Shown here one piece after another: positions 12,171-63,795 of a stretch of DNA of 64,000 nucleotides. The position numbers and the translations under genes were made by a program. The notes below the pieces were generated by a model. It saw only the letters and a program-made list of their open reading frames with translations, was not told the origin of the DNA and searched no databases. The stretch comes from Ectocarpus siliculosus (Eukaryota > Sar > Phaeophyceae > Ectocarpales > Ectocarpaceae): NCBI GenBank assembly GCA_000310025.1, contig FN649758.1, forward strand, positions 3,636,440 through 3,700,439. Direction: 5' to 3'. Numbering within the stretch: position 1 is the stretch's first letter; each line of letters starts with the position of its first letter.

Positions 12171-12428
12171 ACTCCTGGCCTAGTGGATAGCGCTAGTTCG
12201 TGTGTACACAGAGGGAAGAGCGCTCCTGGCCAAGTGGATAGCGCTAGTTCGTGCGTACACAGAGAGAAGAGAGTGCTGAACTCTTCTCGCATTAAAAATT
12301 GAAGGCGAAGGACGGCAGGAGGGGAGGGTAGAGAGAGGCTCTTCTGTGTGACCACGGGTTGGAATAAACGGCACTAGTGCTGTGAGCGCTCATTTGAAGT
12401 GAAGAACAAAAAAAAAAAAAAAAAAAAA
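12171..12428 (+). repeat. SINE-like unit with duplicated tRNA-like head (copy 2)
   Basis: The head TCCTGGCC(T/A)AGTGGATAGC is present twice about 51 bp apart (12173 and 12224). The first resembles a tRNA A box. The body then follows and ends in a poly-A run of about 19 bases. The body matches copies 1 and 3. Confidence 0.75.
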
Positions 12429-12586
12429 GAGGGAAGAGAGCGCTCAACTCTTCTCGCATTATAAATCGAAGGCAACGTACCGCAGGAGGGGAGGATAGAG
12501 AGGGGTCCTTCTGTGTGACCACGGGTTGGAGTAAACGGCACTAGTGCTGTGAGCGCTGATTTGAAGTGAAGAAACCAAAAAAAAAA

Positions 12587-12630
<44 letters not shown>
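12429..12630 (+). repeat. SINE-like unit (copy 3) followed by an ATA/TAA array
   Basis: The body begins inside the head region (GAGGGAAGAGAG), repeats the body of copies 1 and 2, ends in a short A run and runs into about 15 ATA/TAA repeats. It lies directly after the A tail of copy 2, giving a tail-to-head pair. Confidence 0.75.
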
Positions 12631-12850: not shown

Positions 12851-14162
12851 AAGAAAAAAGAAAATAGATAATCTGGAGCTGTTAAGCGTCAGTCTCTCCG
12901 GCCTAACAATAGCCCTAAGTTCATTTTTGTCGCCGACCCTCTTATTCCGATTCCCATACCCTTGCCCGACCGTGTCTCAAAAGCCGATCTCGACCTAGGC
13001 ACACGTCAGGCGACATCCCGACCATGCCTTGGTGGGGCATCGTAATGAACCCCTAGACTACCGTGGCGACAAACAAACAAACAGAACAAACAAGACGAAA
13101 GGGCCACCAAAGGCACGTCATCGCTCGTGGGGAGTTGGTGCAATGGTGCAGTGAAGGAGGGGGGGGGGGGATTAGTCAATGAAGGTGTTCTTTCCGGCAC
13201 ATTCTGCGCCACTCGGTCCGCTGAAGTAATGAAGTATTATATTGTTGTTCGGACTCCGACAAAGCGTCGTTTTCTTCATTTACCTCTGTACCATGGAGTC
13301 TCTGCTGTTGTGCACGCCGTCAACGCAGTAGACCCATTTCCCCAGAAGCTTGTCAACAGCAGTATTAGTAGATTACACCAGTATAGGGGATTGGAACTAA
13401 GTAGCTGTGACAGGTCGTCAGCAGTGGGCCGCGAACGGTTCGGGCCAACATTAAGGTTTGCACACTTTTTCGGACTGTAGCTTCACCCTTTTGACAGCAC
13501 GGCCTCAGCAACGAATATGGGCGAGCCAAACGCGCATGCCGCTGCTTCATGATGTCCTCCACCGGAACGTGTGCTCCGATCGGGACTCCGCAACGCACAA
13601 GACCTTTCTTGAGCTACCCGCCGTGTCGCCTGTTTTTGTGTTGAATATGGACCGGTAGAATTTGTTTGTTGTCTTCGTTTGAGAGAAAGGTGCGTGGAGG
13701 CACTACTGTAGACTTCGCGATAAGCTGTTGGAAACAGTCCAGGAATGGTTTACTGCCGAACACTTCCCCGACTTGCCTCAAGTGTTTCGTGTGTGATTGC
13801 TGGGTTCTTTCTGGACCGTCTTCGAAGTACACGTAGTGGAGAAAATCGAGATCCGTCGGCCAGAACACAGCTCAGCAGAGGGTCCTTTACCAGGCAACAC
13901 AATCAACCTGTACTCGACTTGGTGACGTACTTCGAAGTCGGCCCAAAAATGATAGTAAAACAGGGGGGGGGGCGCCAGTCCCTCTTCGTCCATGTACCGT
14001 ACTGAAGCTAACCCCCCCTCGGCACGTCCGACAAGATTGACGGCAGCGGCAACGATTTGATTCCGCGCCTGATGATGATCCCCTTCCTTCCCTCCTTCCT
14101 TCTGCCGCGTGGTGTCGTGGTGTCAAATCCGCCGTCAATTCACCTGCTGGAGGTTCGCCGCG

Positions 14163-25317
<11,155 letters not shown>

Positions 25318-26610
25318 TTCCCTCCCTCCCGACGCTGTTCTTGCCGCACACGGTGGCTCCTGTTGGCGACTTCGAGCCCTCCTTAGTAGTAGTCGCCTAG
25401 TCTTCCGGTGCACTCTATAACGCCACGTTTCTTGCGGAGTGCGTGTCTTTGTTGGCAACTTGTGAGCGTGAACACTACAGCAGTACAATGTTTTGTTGTC
25501 GTCTTGTCTTGGCGCACTGTTGGGGTACATGTAGCACGCCTTTGGCGTTTGTCGGTGAAGTGCGTGTTGTTGTGTTGTTGATGGTGACTGACCCGTGCGT
25601 CGTGCTGTTGGGGGGAACCCCGTGTTTTAGTTCGTAGGTGCTTGAGGAGGGGGGGCAGTTTGCTCCTTGATTGTAGCACCCCATGTCGTACGCACGTTTG
25701 GTGCTGGATTCGGTCCTTGATTCCTCTCTTGCTTTGCATGTTCTCGGAGGCCGCGGAACGAAAAAGTGACTCCTCGAGAGTTTGGGGTCAGTTTGGCTCA
25801 GATTCTGTCGCCCCGCGTGCTCTTGGTTTTTGGTGATGGGTCTGGTCATGACTTCCCCGCGTGTTTTACGTCCTCCGGATCGCAAGGAATGTTTTGAAAG
25901 TAGTTCATGATAAGTTGTCTTTGTTATTGTTGTAGTGTGGGCACACGCTGGCTCGTAGATCACGTTCAGCCAACGTCGTGTGATAGTTTTGTTCTAGTGG
26001 GGCTCAGAGATAGTTTTGTCCTACATACGCAGCAACATACACCACGAAATATATCGTGCGCTTGATGCTACTTCCACGTTGTCGGAAAGAGGGTGCCCGA
26101 CAAGCCCCACTTCAGGAAGCTTGGAGATGCGCTCATGTGTGGTGGTGCTGTTGAGTCAACCTGCGGAGAGAGTCGTGCGCCCTGTGTACGGCTGCGGACG
26201 TGACAATATTCGCAGCTGGACGCGATGTTTTCTCAGAGAAGCATCACGACACCAATGCGCCCACGGTGTAGAAGATATTGCATGTGCGGTAAGAAAAACC
26301 CTGCTGCAGGTTCTGGGCGTGCGATGGTAAATGCGTGCCGTAAGTGACGTTTGGAAATATGAATTAATCTATGTGTGTTTTGGCGCTTTTTGTTACTACT
26401 GTCCTTGTAGTAGCAAGACTCATTGTAATAGCAAGACCAGAGGTGCTATGAAGCGCGCCAGCGAATTTCTGGTCTCAAGCAGTAATAGGCTAGGTTGGAC
26501 GTTAGTTGCAACGCCGGAAGGCGACAGACGCGATGGCAGATGGGGTGAGAGAGGGCCGGGGGTACTCGGGGAGGTCATGTTATTGGAGCACAGTAGAACA
26601 CGTCGGTCTC

Positions 26611-26773
26611 TATTAAGGAATAATAAATACACACACAGAAAGACTACCCATTCGAGATATACCCACAGTCGAACGGGATGTGGTGGAGTCTTTTCAGCGA
26701 GTGGAGGAAAGCCGGCTGGGTACTGGACTTATTTCGAGTCTTTTTAAGTCTATACACTGATGATTTATGTCAG
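26611..26773 (+). repeat. 163-bp inverted repeat, left arm
   Basis: Nearly identical to the reverse complement of 28181-28343, from TATTAAGGAATAAT to GATGATTTAT(G/T)TCAGT. The right side of the repeat differs at only a few sites (for example GCGAGTGGAGG versus GTGAGTGAAGG). The two arms enclose about 1.4 kb, and a truncated third copy lies at 1372. Confidence 0.88.
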
Positions 26774-26929
26774 TGATGCCAGCTGGTGCTAAGTACAAAA
26801 ACATCTGTATACATCATGGTGGCGGGGGGCGTCTATTGGCCGGTTTTGAATTCCCCCCTTCCTTTTCGTTGGAATAAATGTGGTATGTCGGCCTACCGCA
26901 CATGCGTCGGCGAATGGTTTAGGGGTACT

Positions 26930-27395
26930 ATTGTATCATGCGTGTGCGCACGAAAGACAAGCAGCACGTTTTCAGCTGCGGAAAATTCGCTGCGGATTCC
27001 GCTCGCATGGCCATAGCGGCAGCCTAGCTCGAATTTGGTTCGTGCACGAGCCTGTAAGAGAGGGACGTACGGGACCCCCGCAATTGCTCGACGCCGCAGT
27101 AACAAGGACACGTGGTGCAATAGTGTAGCAATATATGCGATGTGTCTGCCTGCTGCACGCACGTTGACGATTTGTTTTTGGGGAGATGTGTTATAATGCA
27201 TCTGCGCACGAAAGGCACTCAACACGTTTTCGGCTGAGGATGTTTCACCGCGGATTCTGCTCGCACGGCAAAACGGTTAACCTAGCTCGAATTCGGCTAC
27301 TTTCAAAGGCGTCAAGAGCGGGGCGTCCGGAACCCCTGCGATGGCTAGACACCGCAATCGCAGGGAGACGTGGTGCGATAGTGTCGTCAAGTGGC
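26930..27395 (+). repeat. Diverged tandem duplication
   Basis: Segments at about 26930-27130 and 27190-27395 align over their length. Shared blocks include GCGCACGAAAG, CACGTTTTC(A/G)GCTG, CGCGGATTC/GCGGATTC, CCTAGCTCGAATT, GGGACC/GGAACCCC and ACGTGGTGC(A/G)ATAGTGT. Similarity looks like roughly 65-75 percent by eye. Identity and coding status are unknown. Confidence 0.7.
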
Positions 27396-27851
27396 TCGAT
27401 TCAGAGAGAACGACGCCGCCACTCGTGCCCCCTAAAAGACTGTCAGTATCACCACCGACCTCACACGGTTGTTCCGCACGTCGAGAAATGCGCGGGATTA
27501 CTCCTTCGAATCAATGACGCGATGGAAGTTCCTTAATAGGGTTACCGTAAAAATCAAGAGCCGAGGAAGACGACCTTCGGCCTTGCACTTGGCGGTGAGA
27601 GGGCCTTGAAGAACGGGTGTGCCTTACTTCTGCAGCGAAAAAGCTGCAAGAAGGGTCGTCGCAGCATGGGTGTCCTAAGATAACCCGTCTGCTGGCACCG
27701 ACCAAGTAAATCGCCAATGAGTGAATTTCGTCTCGTTTTTATACGTCCGTAACATGTGCCACCTCGTACTTCTCGCCTGAGAGTCCAATGCAGCCCATCG
27801 CAGGTGTTATGGACTTCATTTTTCAAGAAGTATAGACGGCCACCGCGGAGG

Positions 27852-27905
27852 TCTAGTGGTATCCTAAGCGCCAGTCGCAAAGGTCGTGAGTTGGAATCCC
27901 GATGG
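27852..27905 (+). repeat. tRNA-like SINE head
   Basis: The block GGTCTAGTGGTATCCTAAGC, followed about 35 bp later by GAGTTGGAATCCC, resembles Pol III A and B boxes. It is also collinear with the sequence at 12066-12128 (GGTCTAGTTGGTATCCT followed by GGGGTTCGAATCCC). No complete cloverleaf forms. Confidence 0.5.
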
Positions 27906-27990
27906 ATGGGGTGAAAATTTTCAAAAATTAGAGGTGAAAGCGGAATATAGCTGAAAATGCTTTCGTGAGAACCAAAAATCGACGTTAGCA

Positions 27991-28033
27991 CCGTCGCCGA
28001 GGGAAAGGGACGGCTGGACCCTTCTCGCGACAA
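27991..28033 (+). repeat. Short dispersed repeat, plus copy
   Basis: The block GTCGCCGAGGGAAAGGGACG, followed by GCTGGACCCTTCTCGCGA, recurs as its reverse complement at 29183-29222 with a few differences. It lies about 90 bp after the tRNA-like head at 27852 and may be the body of the same SINE-like family. Confidence 0.65.
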
Positions 28034-28180
28034 AAACAGCATTCAGCACGCACCCCAGGATGAAGGTGGGGCACGAAATAAAAAAAGAAGAAAAATGCCC
28101 TGATGTTTACCCCCTCTGCGTGACCCCTGGTTGCCCCCTCCGTGTGACCCTGGATGGTTGTTGTACGAACATATAATATA

Positions 28181-28343
28181 CTGAAATAAATCATCAGTGT
28201 ATAGACTTAAAAAGACTCGAAATAAGTCCAGTACCCAGCCGGTTTCCCTTCACTCACTGAAAAGACTCCACCACATCCCGTTCGACTGTGGGTATATCTC
28301 GAATGGGTAGTCTTTCTGTGTGTGTTTATATTATTCCTTAATA
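28181..28343 (-). repeat. 163-bp inverted repeat, right arm
   Basis: Reverse complement of 26611-26773 with a few substitutions. See the left arm for the shared ends. The two arms plus the 1.4-kb interior could be a single foldback element or two independent insertions. Confidence 0.88.
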
Positions 28344-29182
28344 CTGAAATACGTGTATATAGTGCACGTCTCACCACCAAAAATGGGAGAACTGTCACTA
28401 CAGTAAATAGGAAACACAAGACCTACAGACGGATTCCTGCGGGCTGAGAAATCACGAGGTTGCAGCATTGATGCTGCTTTTCGGAAGATAAGTTCACTTC
28501 TTCAATCCAATGGGGAGCTTCGGAACACAACACCTGTACTGTAGACGAAGGAGGATCTTGCATCGGCAGCAAGACGTTCGTGTCCGCCAAATGAAAAGTT
28601 TCGAACTATTTCAGAAAATTGGGCAGAGCAGAGAATGCCAATATCGTGTGTACGCGAAAGATCCCGATACATGTATGTGTCGCAACATATAGTCTTGCAT
28701 GCATGCCACTGTAGGTACTGTATGGGAGAACCGTTCGATACGATATTCATTATACTGGTGCCCACATGTTCTAGATTTTGTGAAGATCCATGCTGCCTTC
28801 CAAGAGTTATCAAATCAAGATCATCACCCACGTCCCGCCCAACCCGCCCACGCTCAACCCCTCACTCATCACTCTCCTCGACACCCACTCATCGCCGTCC
28901 TTCCCGCTCCGCCCGCCGCACCGGTCACTCTCCTTCACACCACACAGCAGTTCCCGGCCGGAGCATCGACCAGCGGTGAGTTCACTCCTCCTGTGCTGTG
29001 TAAAGAGATTTGTGTGTGTTCGTTCCGTCTATTCTGGCGCCGGTTTACAGGCCTTTCGGCTTACACGTAGACTATACATATACCTGACGCATCAGCCGGG
29101 GTTACACAAGAGGAAGGTCACACATATTCTTGTGTTATTTATTGCCCACCTCTCCAACTGCGGTGCTTGCCTTAATTTCTAT

Positions 29183-56036: not shown

Positions 56037-59000
56037 ATGTTTCTGCCGGACAGGAGGGCTAGCAATACCGACGACCTGGAAATGGGCAACCATACCAGGT
56101 CACCGTCGCTGGAATCCGGTTCAGCCCACGACGGCAGCAGCTTCAGCAGCAGCAGGTACGGCAAGAACAACCGCGGCGGCGACGGCCGTGCCAGACACCA
56201 CCGCACCCCGAGCTCCGCGGGCAACGTGGAGAGCACCCGCAGAGAACGCTCGACCCGTCGTGCCACCGACGGCGACGGCAGTGGCCGCGGCGCGCCCGGC
56301 CACGGCAGACGGCGCAGCGGCAGCCACGGCAGCCGCGGCAGCCGCGGCGGCGGCGGTGGCGGCGGTGTCGGTGGCGGCAGCCGGAGCTCCAGCCGGAGCT
56401 CCAGCCCGGACGGCGGCGACCGGAGCGGCCAAAAACACCGCCGCGGTGGCGACGGCAGCGGCAGCAGTCGGGCCAGAACCCTCGGAGCCGACACCGACAA
56501 TGACGCGGGAGGACTGCTGGAGGGAAGCAGCTACTCCGGCATGTCCGGGATGGTTGTCGTCGACCGCAACAACAACGACCGCGGCGCGTCCTCGAGAAAC
56601 ATCGGCGGCGCCGGGAAGAGCGCGAGTGGCCGCTCAGTGGGCGGCGGAGGCGGGCTTGGTGCCGATGGAGGTGGTAGCGGCATGGGCGGGGGGGGGCAGG
56701 AGCCCGCGGTGCAGAGGAACGGGTGCATGAAAACGTCGACGGCGTTGAAGCTGGTAAGCATATGTACGTGACGTGCGACGAATATGAATGAAGGCTGCAC
56801 GTTTCTTCACGAGATGCTTGCTCTCTTGATCATACTCGGGCCACCCACTGGCGTGTGTGTAGTCGGCTGCCTCATCCTTTAGCGCGCCGTGTGACCCTCC
56901 CGTGTATGTCCATCCGTTATCTTAGCTCTGACCTTTTTGAGAATCCCCCAAGCTCAGACCTGCCGCAGGGGCATTGGATCACGTGGTATGGAGATTTGAA
57001 TTTGAAGTGAAACTTGTCTTTGACGTGAAACGCTACTTCCGGCTGTGGTGGTTCGCTGCACCGCGTCGTGATTCCCATCCCTCACACCGCCTGCAGCCTT
57101 TATCTCTTTATCCTCCACCTTGACGCCCTCCGCCTGGCCCCTCGTCAAAGTTTTTGAGTGACCCCCGTCCTTTCTGTCCTTCGTTTTTTTTTTCCAACTT
57201 TCCAAACACCGCCAAAGATCACCCTGGCGATCGCGCTCCTCAACGTCGTGGCTCTGTGGGGGTGGCATTACGATACGCGGGCGGGGAGGCTGTGCTCGAT
57301 CAGGTGAGCAAAACCCGTGTTATCTATCCAACCGCCCCACGGGGGGGCGCGAATGATTGTGCCATGTTTTGTTGCGCGCGCCTAGTGTGCCGCACCGGTC
57401 AGGCGTCGAGAGATCAGGGTATCGTCGACACCCACTAACCGACGGTTTGCTGTGGTTCATGCTTGGACTGGGCGACCCAATTGTCGAAAACCGGATACGT
57501 CGTAGGCCTCTATAAGGCGGGTTTTAGCGGGTACCCGCCATATGGTGGGTGAATCTCTTGGCACAGATGGAATATGCAAGACGGCGGTTAATGCACACAA
57601 TAGTGCGGGTGCCCTGTACCATAGGGCGAGTGAATCGGTTGGCGCATACCCGCCTTATAGAGGGCCTACGACTGAACATGAAAAATAGTTGGCCCGCCGC
57701 GCGTGCCATGACCCACTAGAAACGACAGAGAGTCGACATCGCACGGTAGTGTCACGAGAACATCTTTTGTCGTACTTCGGTCCGAAAGGCAAGCAGGCAA
57801 CTAGCTCCTCGGTACGTTATCATTCGTACGTATGCTACAATTCCTGGGCGTCGACATGCTGTGTAGCAGTTACAACAGACCACGCGGACCATTGCCGGCC
57901 GATTGCCGAGTATTGTCCCGAACCGGTCATTTCGAGACGAAACCACCCGAGGACCACCGCCAGAATTGCCACGCGAAACAACGCGTTCAGCATGTCGTCT
58001 TTCATCGCCCCGGGGATGCCCGTATCGAACATTTCCGAAGGGAGACCACCTAATAGATTTCGTATCTGCTCTCGATTGTTTTTTCTGATGGTGGCGTATG
58101 TTGTAAGACACGTTCTTCGACCATATGATGTACTTGTACAACGACCATATGGTTTACAAGGAGCAGGAGAATGTGCAACCCTCATCGCGATAAAGTTTGA
58201 AGGCTGGAATCTCCGACGGGGTTGTTCTTGTGTGACCCTGGCTTGGACGCCCGAAAATGATCACGCACAAGAAGTAAAGGTGCCCACAGGCGTCCAGTGT
58301 GGGTTGCATGAAGGAAGAACCATCGGAAGTGGCAACGCAGGGTTGCAAGAAAGCAAGCAGAGAGCGAGATTGTGGCTGTGATAGATATACTTGTAGCAAT
58401 GCCAAGTGGTTGTAGGATTGTGTGGTACGTGGAATGTATTTCCAGGGTGTGCAAGGTACCCCTGTTGTATACTGCGTCGCCCCCTCATGGTGGTGCGTGC
58501 ACGCGTGCGTGCAGTCCATGTCTGTCCATGTGTCCATGTGTCCATGTTCGTTCATGTGTTCATGTGAGTCCATGTTTTTCATGTGAAGAAGAAGTCTATA
58601 CAACAAGCCCAGCACATCTTTCCTCCTTGGCGCGAGTTCGCCGAGTTGCCGACACCCTATTCAACACACGTCTTGCGACAAGCTACCCCCAGTTCGGATC
58701 ATCCTAACACGCTAGCGTGTGATATCACACGGGATCCCGAGGTGAGGTTAGCTATAAAAGGGTTCGGCTAGAGAAGTAGATCATGGAAGCCCTCGACCTC
58801 AGCAGCTTAACTGAAGAGGACCGCCAAGCATTATCGGCGCACATCAAAGAGGAAGTGGAGAGAGGAGTACAAGAAAAAATCAAGTTTACCGAAGAGAAGC
58901 GTCCCGCATCAGAGAGCGTGGACAAGCCCCCCGATGGAGGCGATCCCCGGCATGCTCGGCCGGCTGGAACAGCGTTAGACCCGCAACCTGAAGACCAGCC

Positions 59001-62000
59001 ACGATCGTTGGAGGACCGTCTCGTTGAGTCCTTCGCGCGGGCAATGCGGAGGACCAACACCCCGGGGGAAGAAACCAGGGAAGTCTTACCCCCTAAGGAC
59101 ACCATCCGTGTCAGTCCTGTATGTATTACATGTAGCCCCATTTACGGGTGTGTTTGATTCTAGTGGCGATGTCCAGGTTGGAGTACAGGTTTTTGAGAGC
59201 CAATTTCGAATGTTGTTGTAACACTGGAGATGCCGAGCAGCAACACCATCAGCATGCGCCTACTAAGGTCGTAGATCCGCTCAGGCACGTGATGATCTGC
59301 TCACCGTTTCACGTCTGAAGTGGTTTTGGTATATGCTTGCATGCTTGTCTTGGTCGATTTCGTTTGGGTGTGCTCCGATAAACCTACAGCACACCTTGTT
59401 GAGTTCTGCATACATACGCGTCATCATCAAGCACATGTTTTTCCTGAAAGGTACAGCAGTAGACCCATCAAAGGGCGTTCTTTTCTTGATAAGGTTGCCA
59501 GTGATCCACACAAAACTGCGAGGTTAAATGGATATTGAGTCACGTAAGGTTGCCAGTCACCCACAAAACTGCGAGGTTGTATGGCTACTACGCCACGTAA
59601 GGTTGCCAGTCACCCACAGAAACGGAAAGAATAGATGAGAGTGTCAGCGAATCCTAACCAAGCTGCTGCATATACCTTCTTGAGTGCTTTGAAGTTGATG
59701 GGAATATTTTGTCCCTCTTGTGTTAAAATATAGAGATTGATCTCCGACTCATTATTTTTGCGTTCACGTCGATAACGGGATATGCGAAGGCGTCATGAAT
59801 CTTTGCACCCTCTACCGACAATGAGTTGCGTGTTATGAACAGGAGTCTGTTGCATGTCCAGCGGTAGGAGTGGTAGGGGGATACACTTGGAAATTTGGTC
59901 AGGGGTCTGTGTAACTGACAGGACTACATGGAAATGATCTCCATTTCGTACCAGAACACTGTATGCACGAAAGCAGCGCAGTGGTTGCACACCAGTAAGA
60001 AGAAGATGTGTTGGGTTGTTGATCAGAAACACAGCTGTGTAAGCTCTAACATGGATCCAACATTGTTGTTTGCGTGACCGAGGAATAATTAACCTTGTCA
60101 GACAAATCGCAAGAATCGTTGTGTCACTTTTACGAAAGAGGAGTAATTAACCTCAGTCGTAGATTGGCGTTCGATTTGATAGGTAACCATGATGTCGTAC
60201 AGAATGCGAAAGACAACGGTCACTGCTGCGCAGAACAGGGGGCGTATTGCAAGGTATTCTCCCCAGCAGTGCCACGTGCTAAATTGACGCTTTGGGTGAC
60301 TGATTTTGCCTGTGCCTTTCCCTTTCGGATGCGCAATCTCCCCTGCACTGCCGAGTCAATCCCCCCGGAGAGACAGCTGCACCCACCCCACCCAGGCGGA
60401 TACGTGGCACCTGATGAAGCCTGAGCCGCGGCCATGCCAGCAGAAAAGGGTGGCCGCGGCAGAGGCGAGGGTGGCTACCGCGGGGAAGAAGCAGTGGCAG
60501 GAGGGATGGATGAAAGCGCTGGGGTTGATGGGCCGGCAAAAATACTTCGTGTGACCAATGGTGTGACTTTTCTTATTTCGTGTTCTCATTGTTTTGGCTT
60601 TGGTTTGTGGTGCTTCGGCTTTGTGTTTGGTCTTTTTGAGTAAGAAGTCGAGCCTGAACGAGTAGGATTTTATTTTCGAGGTTTTCACAGGATGTTTGGT
60701 TGTGAACAGCGATCACAACCTGAGGGAGCAGGTGGTAGAGGAGATTTTATTCTTGGAAAATTGGGATGCAGGGACTTTGAAGACCTCGAAGCAGACGTAC
60801 GCTGAAGAGTTGGGGATGGAGTTTGGGGTAGAGTACGGGAAGGAAATTCCTCTTCCTGTAGGGTTGAAGCTTTCAGAGTTTGACCAGGATGAAGAAGTGG
60901 TATCAAGGCCTTTTCGTGAGCTGATAGGATCATTGATGCGGCTGGCAACGCAAACGAGGCCAGATATCGCGAACGCAGTGAGAGCGGTAGCACGGTAGTG
61001 TGCTTCTTCCAAAGAAATTCATTGGAGAGCAGGTCTTGGTATTTTGGGGTATGTGGTAAGGACTAGTGACTTGGGTATTTCATTCAGGAGGGGTAGTGTA
61101 GCAGGGTTGAGCATGGAGGTGTTCGCAGACGCAGACTATGCAAGTAAGGCTGCCGATAGGAGGTCTGTGTCAGGAGGGTTGGTGATGTGTGGGGGGGGAT
61201 GTATTTCTTGGTTTTCAAGGACGCAGAAGTGCGTTACGTTAAGCACGACAGAGGCGGAGTATGTCTCTCTTGCGGATGTGATGAAGGAAGTGTTGTTTCT
61301 GAGGCAAGTATGGCGTTTCATGTTGCCGATATGCCGTGTATTCCGGTGTTCGAGGATAACCAGGGGGCTATTCAGTTGGCGCAGAACCCGATTAGCAACA
61401 GTAACTCGAAGCACATCGACGTAAGGCACCACTTTATCAGGGATTTGGTATGCAGGAAGGAGATTTCGATTTTTCACGTGGAATCGGCGTATCAACATGC
61501 TGACTTCCTCACGAAGGCACTTAACGTGGGAAATTTCGAGTTTCATCGTAACTTCGTAATGAGTATGGATTAATATTTTGATGTTTGGGTTTATTTTGTG
61601 TGTGATCAAACAACTAGGGCGGCAACATTTTGCATTTTTGCCTATGGATTTTCTCAATGGATGGTGTTCTAGGCTGGGGGGCAATTAGTTCACTGAAGCT
61701 CGAAGAAGTATATCTGATATGACCGGGGATGGGAATTGATGTCTAGCCAGTGAGGCTATTGTTCTGGAGTTGAGTTGACTTTCTGAGTTTATTTTCTTGT
61801 GTTTTGGAGTTCTTGAGGATCGAAAAAGACATGGCATGGTCACAAGCAGGGGGGCTGATAGATATACTTGTAGCAATGCCAAGTGGTTGTAGGATTGTGT
61901 GGTACGTGGAATGTATTTCCAGGGTGTGCAAGGTACCCCTGTTGTATACTGCGTCGCCCCCTCATGGTGGTGCGTGCACGCGTGCGTGCAGTCCATGTCT

Positions 62001-63795
62001 GTCCATGTGTCCATGTGTCCATGTTCGTTCATGTGTTCATGTGAGTCCATGTTTTTCATGTGAAGAAGAAGTCTATACAACAAGCCCAGCACATCTTTCC
62101 TCCTTGGCGCGAGTTCGCCGAGTTGCCGACACCCTATTCAACACACGTCTTGCGACAAGCTACCCCCAGTTCGGATCATCCTAACAGGCTGAGGCATTTT
62201 ACGTCTGGGACTAGAGGGAGGCGATTCTGCCCCTTGCCTCCTGAGCGACGACGTGAAGTCAATGGCGGGGTGAAATGGTCGCGTAGATCTATTGCCGCCC
62301 CCCACCTCGCCAGTGATGGGTCCTGTGGGAACAACTCTCGGCCCTCTCGAGGACGCGCGACCAAGAGGACGCGTGACCAGTGTTGTAACAGCTAAGGCAT
62401 GCAGAAGCTGAGTACGCCCCCCCCCCTACCCTTGTTTTCCCCCGGTTGCTGTACGTTGCCAATGCCAGGAGCCGGCGAGCGTGCGTGTCGTCCGGCCCCG
62501 AGATGGCCCTGATTTCGGTCGCGAGGCTGACAGCCGGGGCGCTGTTCCCGAGCATCTTCTTCTGCGTGCTCTCCAAGTGCTACGCCACGCGCTACCTCTT
62601 GCACCACAGCTGGCTGACCTTTATCATCGACTTCGAGCCTTCGCACAAGCTCCACACCTGTGAGTTTTTTGTTTGGAGGGCGCGTGCCCTCGATGCTTCC
62701 GCCGTTTTCGGCGTGTTTACAGCCCTGCGCCTTTGTAATCGGTCTCTCGCTCGCTCAAGGGTTGTCGCGAACCTCTCGGTAAGTTTCGTGGAAATTTCTT
62801 GGTGGTTGTGGTAGCGCTCGGTTCCGTTCGTGTCGGGGTTGGGGTTGTGGCGGCGGCGACAGTCTTTGGTTTTGGTAAGTAGGGCAAGGGGTGACGCGTT
62901 GTGATTCAGGTATAGGGCACAGACGGTGTTTCGCTGACCACTTTGGAGCATGTTCACGTCCAAAGCAGCTCCATTGTTCAACGAGTTTCTCGTGTCACAA
63001 GAACACAGGAAGGCATACCAGTAGGTTATCCAATCTTTTGGGGTTGTGTTTTTCCCATTCTCTAACCCTCTGTCTGCCTGTCTGCCTGTCTGTTTATCTC
63101 TCTCTCGCTCGTTCTCTCTCTCTTTCTCTTTGTCGACAGACTTCGGAGTGCTGATTCTGCTCTGCAGTGTCGTCCACAGCGTGTGTCACATCGCGGTCGG
63201 CGCCCTGCAACGCCGCGCGGACCACGCCTTCAAAGACGAGATAAACCGCTCGGGCCTGGTGGCTGTGCTGCTGCTCTTGCCGATAGCCCTGCCCATGACC
63301 ATGCGGTTGGCTAAAACAAAAGTGAGAAGTCGTTTTTCGTGCTGTCTTTGCTCTCTTTCGCGGATATCTCCCGGTATCGTCTTGGTTTCCGAGCGTTGTG
63401 ACACCCCAGGTCCCGCAAGAGGTTTACAGATCTGTGGCTCTAACCGGCTTTTCGCTGCCCCGTGTTGTCCCCGTTGTTTCGCACGTGATAACGAAACACC
63501 CCAGCTCACGTTCGAGGCGAGGAAGTACCTGCACCTGCTGTTCATCCCGTTCATGATTGCCGTCTGCTTCCACGGGAGGGCGCTCCAGATCCTGGGCGCC
63601 ATCCTCCTCGCGTGGTACCTGCTGGACCGCTTGTACTTCACTACCAAGATGTCAGTGTCGCCGCCTTAGGCACGTGTTCTAGTCCCTTTTCTTTGACTGG
63701 TGATTGGTTGCGCTCCTTCTAGCCGTCATTTTTTTTATTTTATTTTTCGAGGAAGCCATGCGCCTGGTCACGGGTGAAGAAGTAGTGGCGTCCCC

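Follow-up and report, generated by a model that had tools for sequence, protein, structure and literature searches.

A Defective Copia Element in Ectocarpus siliculosus and Its Probable Membership in a Non-autonomous Retrotransposon Lineage

Structure of the Element

A stretch of 64,000 nt of Ectocarpus siliculosus DNA (C33:3636440-3700439, referred to as the window) contains a 3.81 kb retrotransposon flanked by long terminal repeats (LTRs), all features of which are given here for the + strand. The 5' LTR (58379-58709, TGATAG...CTAACA) and the 3' LTR (61856-62186) are both 331 bp long, identical letter for letter and bounded by TG...CA ends, and a perfect 5-bp target-site duplication, GGCTG, lies outside them on the left (58374-58378) and on the right (62187-62191). 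Near-identical LTRs with these termini and a short target duplication identify the element as an LTR retrotransposon. The interior (58710-61855) starts with a presumed primer-binding site, CGCTAGCGTGTGA (58710-58722), at whose post-LTR place a second Copia-like family, termed family B, carries CGCTAGCGTATGA. The leader and gag start (58710-59252) are common to the longer relatives discussed below and include a gag-like open reading frame (ORF) of 124 aa (58783-59157), whose end differs in 8 of the 18 copies compared. Next come about 1.5 kb in which no gene is recognizable. This replacement block (59253-60759) was not found in the read parts of the longer relatives and stands for approximately 5.56 kb of gag-pol in the relative C25. 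Alignment delimits a module (59207-60540) which is common to the short elements of family B and includes a 53-bp tandem repeat (59490-59623) whose repeat number varies among copies.

The remainder of the interior is a broken fragment of the pol end (60760-61575), delimited by alignment to the C25 relative and a frame check. It comprises the end of the reverse transcriptase (RT) and a region which we presume, from its motifs, to be RNase H, and which gave no Pfam match. In comparison to the open 3' fragment of the full-length relative, it carries an in-frame TAG (60996-60998), present in 13 of 28 other aligned rows, as well as a 7-nt deletion near 61327/61328 (site 61324-61328), a frameshift found in 10 of these 28 rows. 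The polypurine tract AGCAGGGGGGC (61845-61855), whose last 8 bases precede most of the right LTRs read, corresponds to AGTAGGGGGGC in family B. Since homology to the relatives is restricted to 58379-59252 (nine copies), 60760-61855 (one copy aligned, L102) and the LTRs, protease, integrase and nearly all of RT are, as judged by alignment, missing from the window element; just the last 24 or so residues of the RVT_2 match of the relative fall inside this homology. An initial annotation of the window had described the identical LTRs, the perfect duplication, an interior devoid of protease, integrase and most of RT, and a nonsense codon plus a frameshift, and all of these features were recovered.

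Searches for further content gave negative results. Five window ORFs of the element (including 60095-60424) showed no Pfam domain up to E 1, and for 10 of the 14 window ORFs of at least 230 aa Pfam returned nothing at E 0.01. No Rfam match at gathering scores was obtained in the window, and ARAGORN detected no tRNA in it. An anticodon-arm pattern search for the primer tRNA guessed from the post-LTR sequence gave 0 matches. A 111-nt stretch of 20 nt of LTR and 91 nt of leader folded no better than shuffled sequences (z -0.07), and palindromes in the leader were consequently dropped as a structural signal. Variable sites of the gag-like ORF are distributed over the three codon positions as 8, 17 and 15 among 18 copies, so that no protein constraint is visible. 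The GC content of the window varies between 0.486 and 0.616 in 2-kb steps.

Copies of the Short Form in the Genome

The genome searched comprises 189.5 Mb in 492 contigs and contains 87 matches to PF00504, the light-harvesting family, as expected of a photosynthetic host. DNA searches scored about 40 candidates at most and all copy counts are lower bounds (scored/candidates: LTR 40/128, leader 40/58, middle 40/61, 3' part 40/269). All 40 scored LTR candidates, the best 40 of 128, match the query. The core of the module (59961-60540) is the most specific query, with 40 of 41 candidates scored; its 42 matches fall into 40 places, of which two are split. Thirty-three of these places belong to the family of the window element (family A) and seven to family B. 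Each of the 33 is adjoined by a family A leader or 3' part, and each of the seven carries the whole interior of a short family B element, L069. The at least 33 family A copies represent 31 insertions if the C30/C76 pair and the C11 tandem are each counted once. Because the same interior recurs at 33 of the 40 scored places, the interior of the window element cannot be attributed to chance. A further family A copy at C33:3596472-3599882 enters an N gap before the module core. At C11:1972961-1975149, about 500 bp separate a family A leader from a 3' part, and no module match is listed there; this copy appears to have lost the module.

The single short family A copies otherwise compared measure 3.66-4.52 kb and contain gag and pol remnants. 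Terminal-repeat retrotransposons in miniature (TRIMs) are very short elements, far below 1-2 kb, that have little interior, while large retrotransposon derivatives (LARDs) exceed 4 kb and have a long, conserved non-coding interior. The window element fits neither class, as it is too long for a TRIM (3.8 kb) and, at 3.81 kb and with gag and pol remnants, differs from a LARD in size and content. It does exhibit two features of a non-autonomous element: the enzymes are missing although multiple insertions have their own target duplications, and putative cis sequences are common to an enzyme-coding partner.

Longer Relatives and the Candidate Helper

Nine longer family A copies carry the leader (58710-59120) at 98.8-99.3% identity. 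A stop-free PF00665 integrase match was found in all nine leader-bearing long copies (among the best 150 of 658 candidates). Eight of these copies have it located between leader and 3' match; the 3' end of the ninth, C24, lies outside the part read. The long copies align to window positions 58379-59252 at 92-95% (LTR included). The C25 copy (L102), the one aligned in full over the 3' part (60760-61855), is 97.6% identical there, and in the other seven the 3' match starts at the same point (query position 160) at 95-96%. At the 5' end, short and longer copies thereby have some 870 bp in common, counting the LTR, and a further 1.1 kb or so ahead of the 3' LTR. LTR identity to the window element is about 94-95% for C25 and 86-89% for the other long copies. 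The eight long copies read at both ends measure 7.3-7.9 kb, have 0 or 1 LTR substitutions and, in seven cases (C14 being the exception), a perfect target duplication.

The open 3' piece of C25 (422 aa) shows an RVT_2 match (E 3.7e-16), and PF00665 is located upstream of this piece. Although the window element itself has no integrase, its coding relative thus exhibits both the RT type and the order of integrase and RT of Ty1/Copia elements, and the Copia assignment of the initial annotation holds. That annotation had also predicted that full-length relatives with intact pol would identify a helper; the long copies with an open integrase match are candidates for this role, and the family A copies of about 7.3-7.9 kb are likely to be the helpers.

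Replaced Interior and the Module Shared With Family B

By hand calculation, 5.56 kb separate the two breakpoints in the C25 copy. In the short form, the interval between them measures 1,507 bp and cannot be aligned to the read parts of the long copies. Judged by these alignments, the interior is not a simple deletion, as had been assumed at first: the loss of gag-pol stands, and about 5.6 kb of it are replaced by 1.5 kb of other sequence. Window positions 59207-60540 (1.33 kb) align to L069:2896-4495, with 79% identity in the first part, 89% in the rest and 94% in the core (59961-60540). The L069 locus (C11:1686000-1693500) contains a second short LTR element at L069:2297-5419, which, with ends determined by eye, has LTRs of about 353 bp starting with TATTAG (TA, not TG) and ending with GATCA, and a GCTCC duplication. 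No sense ORF of at least 120 aa was found in its interior. The remaining part of the block (60541-60759) reached a best local score of 33 against the L069 3' part (shuffle maximum 30) in a low-complexity stretch, and scored within shuffles against the C25 relative.

The L069 LTR was found at 40 places (the best 40 of 209 candidates). Family B LTRs were listed beside three of the seven module places in family B context, and one was read directly. When these LTRs are paired by position, the spacing is 1.2-1.6 kb (8 pairs), 2.8 kb (1) or 6.0-7.1 kb (6); between the members of one long pair (C18:4133739-4140089) lies an RVT_2 match containing one TAG. Since the spacings form size classes and a long pair encloses RVT_2, family B likewise seems to have short and long forms. 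Families A and B have in common the post-LTR sequence CGCTAGCGT(G/A)TGA and, before the right LTR, AG(C/T)AGGGGGGC; signals so alike would let the same machinery copy the RNAs of both. ACACGGGATCCCGAG is likewise present in the leaders of both A (window 58727-58741) and B (L069:2852-2866), though not equally far from the LTR; the local score is 33 against a maximum of 26 in 200 shuffles, and this motif might be a shared RNA signal.

A helper from family B, or from another Copia family, instead of the longer family A copies would be in keeping with the primer-site-like sequence, polypurine tract and part of the interior that A and B share. This is nevertheless unlikely, as the long family A copies have the approximately 870 bp at the 5' end and 1.1 kb at the 3' end in common with the short copies and as an alignment of the A and B LTRs scores no better than shuffled sequences (17 against a shuffle mean of 17.5).

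The presence of one module in two families suggests template switching between co-packaged RNAs. A bolder and rather improbable proposal is that the 1.33-kb module is itself selected, as a non-coding RNA passenger that moves between two Copia-like families and acts as a satellite of retrotransposons. In its favor, all 40 scored places lie in a family A or B context (33 and 7, respectively) and no free copy was seen, one candidate being unscored. If true, such a satellite would survive by improving the packaging, dimerization or copying of its carrier RNA. The two-family module marks an exchange between unlike retrotransposon RNAs and is the part worth following.

Insertion Footprints and Age

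LTR pairs were compared for 24 family A elements, including the window element. Twelve pairs show no substitution; five of these are identical (window, C6, C169, C11 outer and C15:3465950), and in the other seven the differences are confined to 1-3 gaps. Between 1 and 5 substitutions are present in eleven pairs, and C45 has 17 together with a degraded right LTR end. The initial annotation had considered gene conversion or assembly as the source of the LTR identity. For such a conversion or assembly collapse in place of recent retrotransposition, one could cite that the same LTR sequence occurs in several copies on different contigs and that some assembled copies contain N gaps. The 12 pairs without substitution, among which the window element is not a one-off, have distinct flanks and duplications, however. 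Furthermore, 12 pairs with 1-17 substitutions, and gaps in seven of the other 12, show that there was no general homogenization, and no N is present in the loci covering the window copy. LTR identity of this origin is therefore very unlikely.

A perfect 5-bp duplication, differing between insertions, accompanies 21 of the 24 LTR pairs, the exceptions being C94:110239, C45 and C94:122505; after merging of C30/C76, 20 of 23 loci have one. At C30:3823112-3826927 and C76:183654-187469, the same insertion with the same flank is found, 99.5% alike, and this pair probably represents a second haplotype or a duplicated assembly segment. It is also what speaks for a multiplication of the copies by duplication of DNA segments rather than by retrotransposition, a scenario which becomes highly improbable in view of the 21 perfect duplications and of the 26 5' flanks compared, among which the sole other overlap is that of a nested pair in C10. 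In this pair (C10:4496474-4504011), a short copy is nested in an older short copy of family A, each with its own duplication. Another arrangement was observed at C11:5346403-5354189, where three identical LTRs and two interiors, one with a 100-base N gap, lie within a single CCTGT duplication; by analogy, this copy fits the template-switch product described in wheat relatives (Triticeae; PMC1950507). Both complexes combine two interiors with three LTRs, identical in the C11 copy, inside one flanking duplication, but unlike the described elements, in the part of the literature covered here, the C11 copy is built of the non-autonomous form and has a gap in one interior.

A mutation rate of 4.07e-10 substitutions per site and generation is given for Ectocarpus and of 1.22e-9 for a Scytosiphon cross (PMC10254074). 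If such rates apply to the host, zero differences in 331 bp imply, by the rule of three, a divergence below 0.009 and thus an age of less than approximately 11 or 3.7 million generations, respectively. The insertion had initially been called very young. The identity of the LTRs is confirmed, but absolute youth does not follow from it, because at the low brown-algal rate identical LTRs can span millions of generations (up to about 11 million at 4.07e-10). The element is young only in a relative sense, as one of the half of the family without LTR substitutions, and identical LTRs should not be equated with a very recent insertion where the mutation rate is very low.

Shared Lesions

The open frame of the C25 relative served as the yardstick for lesions in the pol fragment, and rows were kept if they covered at least about 600 bp of its 816 bp. 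This left 29 short and 9 long rows; of the 33 module copies, four (C25:868, C489:360, C30:3377 and C5:518) were omitted because the sequence read covered too little of their 3' part. Eight of the nine long rows derive from copies with leader and integrase, while C22 was placed solely by a 3' match starting at the same breakpoint. The TAG of the window element is present in 14 of the 29 short rows and the 7-nt deletion in 11. Both occur together in seven (window, C6, C10 inner, C15:1934, C24, C169 and C479), the TAG alone in seven, the deletion alone in four, two of which are the C11 tandem, and neither in 11. Some lesion of the fragment is found in 28 of the 29 short rows, C18 being the exception, as opposed to one of the nine long rows. 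The 7-nt deletion sits between two GCC repeats, and repeated loss by slippage is possible.

As the same lesions occur in insertions at different places with different target duplications, the stop and the frameshift are, on comparison of these copies, inherited through transposition and older than the insertion in the window. The prediction that other copies would share the interior, the stop and the frameshift is borne out by the window element and six further insertions with both lesions, and lesions acquired after the insertion, the alternative offered alongside it, are disfavored. That the element was autonomous when it inserted and decayed later has next to no probability: the interior cannot be dated from the identical LTRs by themselves, but the same interior lies at 33 of 40 scored places and several insertions with different target duplications have the same stop and frameshift. 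Variable sites of the pol fragment by codon position number 44, 32 and 50 in the 29 short rows and 11, 13 and 26 in the 9 long rows. The direction of this difference fits a relaxed constraint in the short form, yet the contrast is weak and was not relied upon.

A Probable Non-autonomous Lineage

These observations lead to the reading, to which we assign a probability of about 0.9, that the window element is a member of a non-autonomous Copia lineage spread by retrotransposition according to the mechanism outlined here. The suggestion of the initial annotation that the RNA was copied in trans within such a lineage is thereby supported by the 33 copies with the same interior, the shared lesions and the candidate helper. 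In this model, the LTR promoter of the short element would give rise to an RNA that retains the likely cis signals, namely the LTR ends, the putative primer site, the leader and gag start, and the polypurine tract. These parts are observed to be shared, and their functions are presumed; packaging signals are normally located in the leader and gag start. Relatives of about 7.3-7.9 kb would provide Gag, RT and integrase in trans. Reverse transcription would then restore like LTRs, and integrase would create the 5-bp duplication, which is visible as a footprint. Because no protein is required in cis, the pol remnant would decay while the lineage spreads, in agreement with the lesions seen in several insertions. 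The approximately 5.6 kb of gag-pol would have been swapped for 1.5 kb, including the family B module, with template switching in mixed particles as the most likely route.

The short copies also show signs of a mosaic history. When 18 of them were aligned, 2157 of 5995 pairs of informative sites (0.36) exhibited all four combinations; in 100 simulations without recombination on the best tree, this fraction averaged 0.15 and never exceeded 0.21. The window element and C24 have 0 differences at 742 positions of the 5' LTR and leader, yet 16 compared sites differ further in. Recombination among co-packaged RNAs is the likely, though not proven, source of this pattern.

Several points weigh against parts of this account. 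The lower bound on recombination events is 28, no higher than in the simulations, which averaged 29.3 and reached at most 43. In the pol-fragment tree, long and short copies are intermingled (3 changes). A single clade of short copies was recovered in none of the 200 bootstrap trees (0%), and the two forms show no fixed difference over this fragment; a test of one common origin for the short form does not reject it (p-AU 0.10). One long row, C489, has a stop, the other eight of nine being free of lesions. Among the long copies, RVT_2 was demonstrated only for C25, and none of the nine was among the best 150 of 519 RVT_2 candidates. The evidence on the long copies consists of integrase matches and 3' fragments, from which a helper function is predicted.

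Relation to Known Systems

Non-autonomous LTR retrotransposons are a known kind of element; the window family, its helper and the shared module are apparently new. The Athila elements of Arabidopsis form a group of the Gypsy type. New Athila lineages, including non-autonomous ones, are described as products of recombination between distant families, and many non-autonomous members keep ORFs under selection (PMC2410132), of which the window family shows no sign. The non-autonomous RLC_Angela of wheat and BARE2 of barley have degenerate coding regions and co-evolve with autonomous partners, and gene conversion or template switching was proposed for their change of partner (PMC9744471). The window family resembles them as a degenerate Copia family with a putative autonomous partner; it differs, as far as these systems are described there, in that the short forms of two families whose LTRs cannot be aligned have a defined 1.33-kb module in common.

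In Ectocarpus, LTR elements range from 3.9 to 14.5 kb, and the Copia families Copia-N1_Ec32 and Copia-11_Ec32 have a single, partly gag-like ORF (PMC12477816). The Copia-N families are, by description only, comparable to the window family as brown-algal Copia elements with a gag-like ORF; unlike for the window family, the parts of that report concerning them describe no pol remnant or between-family module, and the terms “chimeric” and “template switch” are absent from its main text (PMC12477816). In literature titles and abstract openings, with supplements and most full texts outside this scope, no module common to two algal Copia families was encountered. A set of helper-dependent elements together with a candidate helper in a brown alga would open retrotransposon parasitism to study beyond land plants and animals.

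Other Repeats in the Window

Three further repeats were observed in the window. An inverted repeat at 26598-28356, with 177-nt arms that are 93% complementary and 1405 nt apart, is perhaps a small DNA transposon. At 12261-12594, a 167-nt unit is present in two tandem copies that are 88% alike. A 119-nt repeat occurs in three direct copies at 14509-14828, in a stretch that is open in both directions (14079-15278 on the + strand and 14140-15174 on the - strand).

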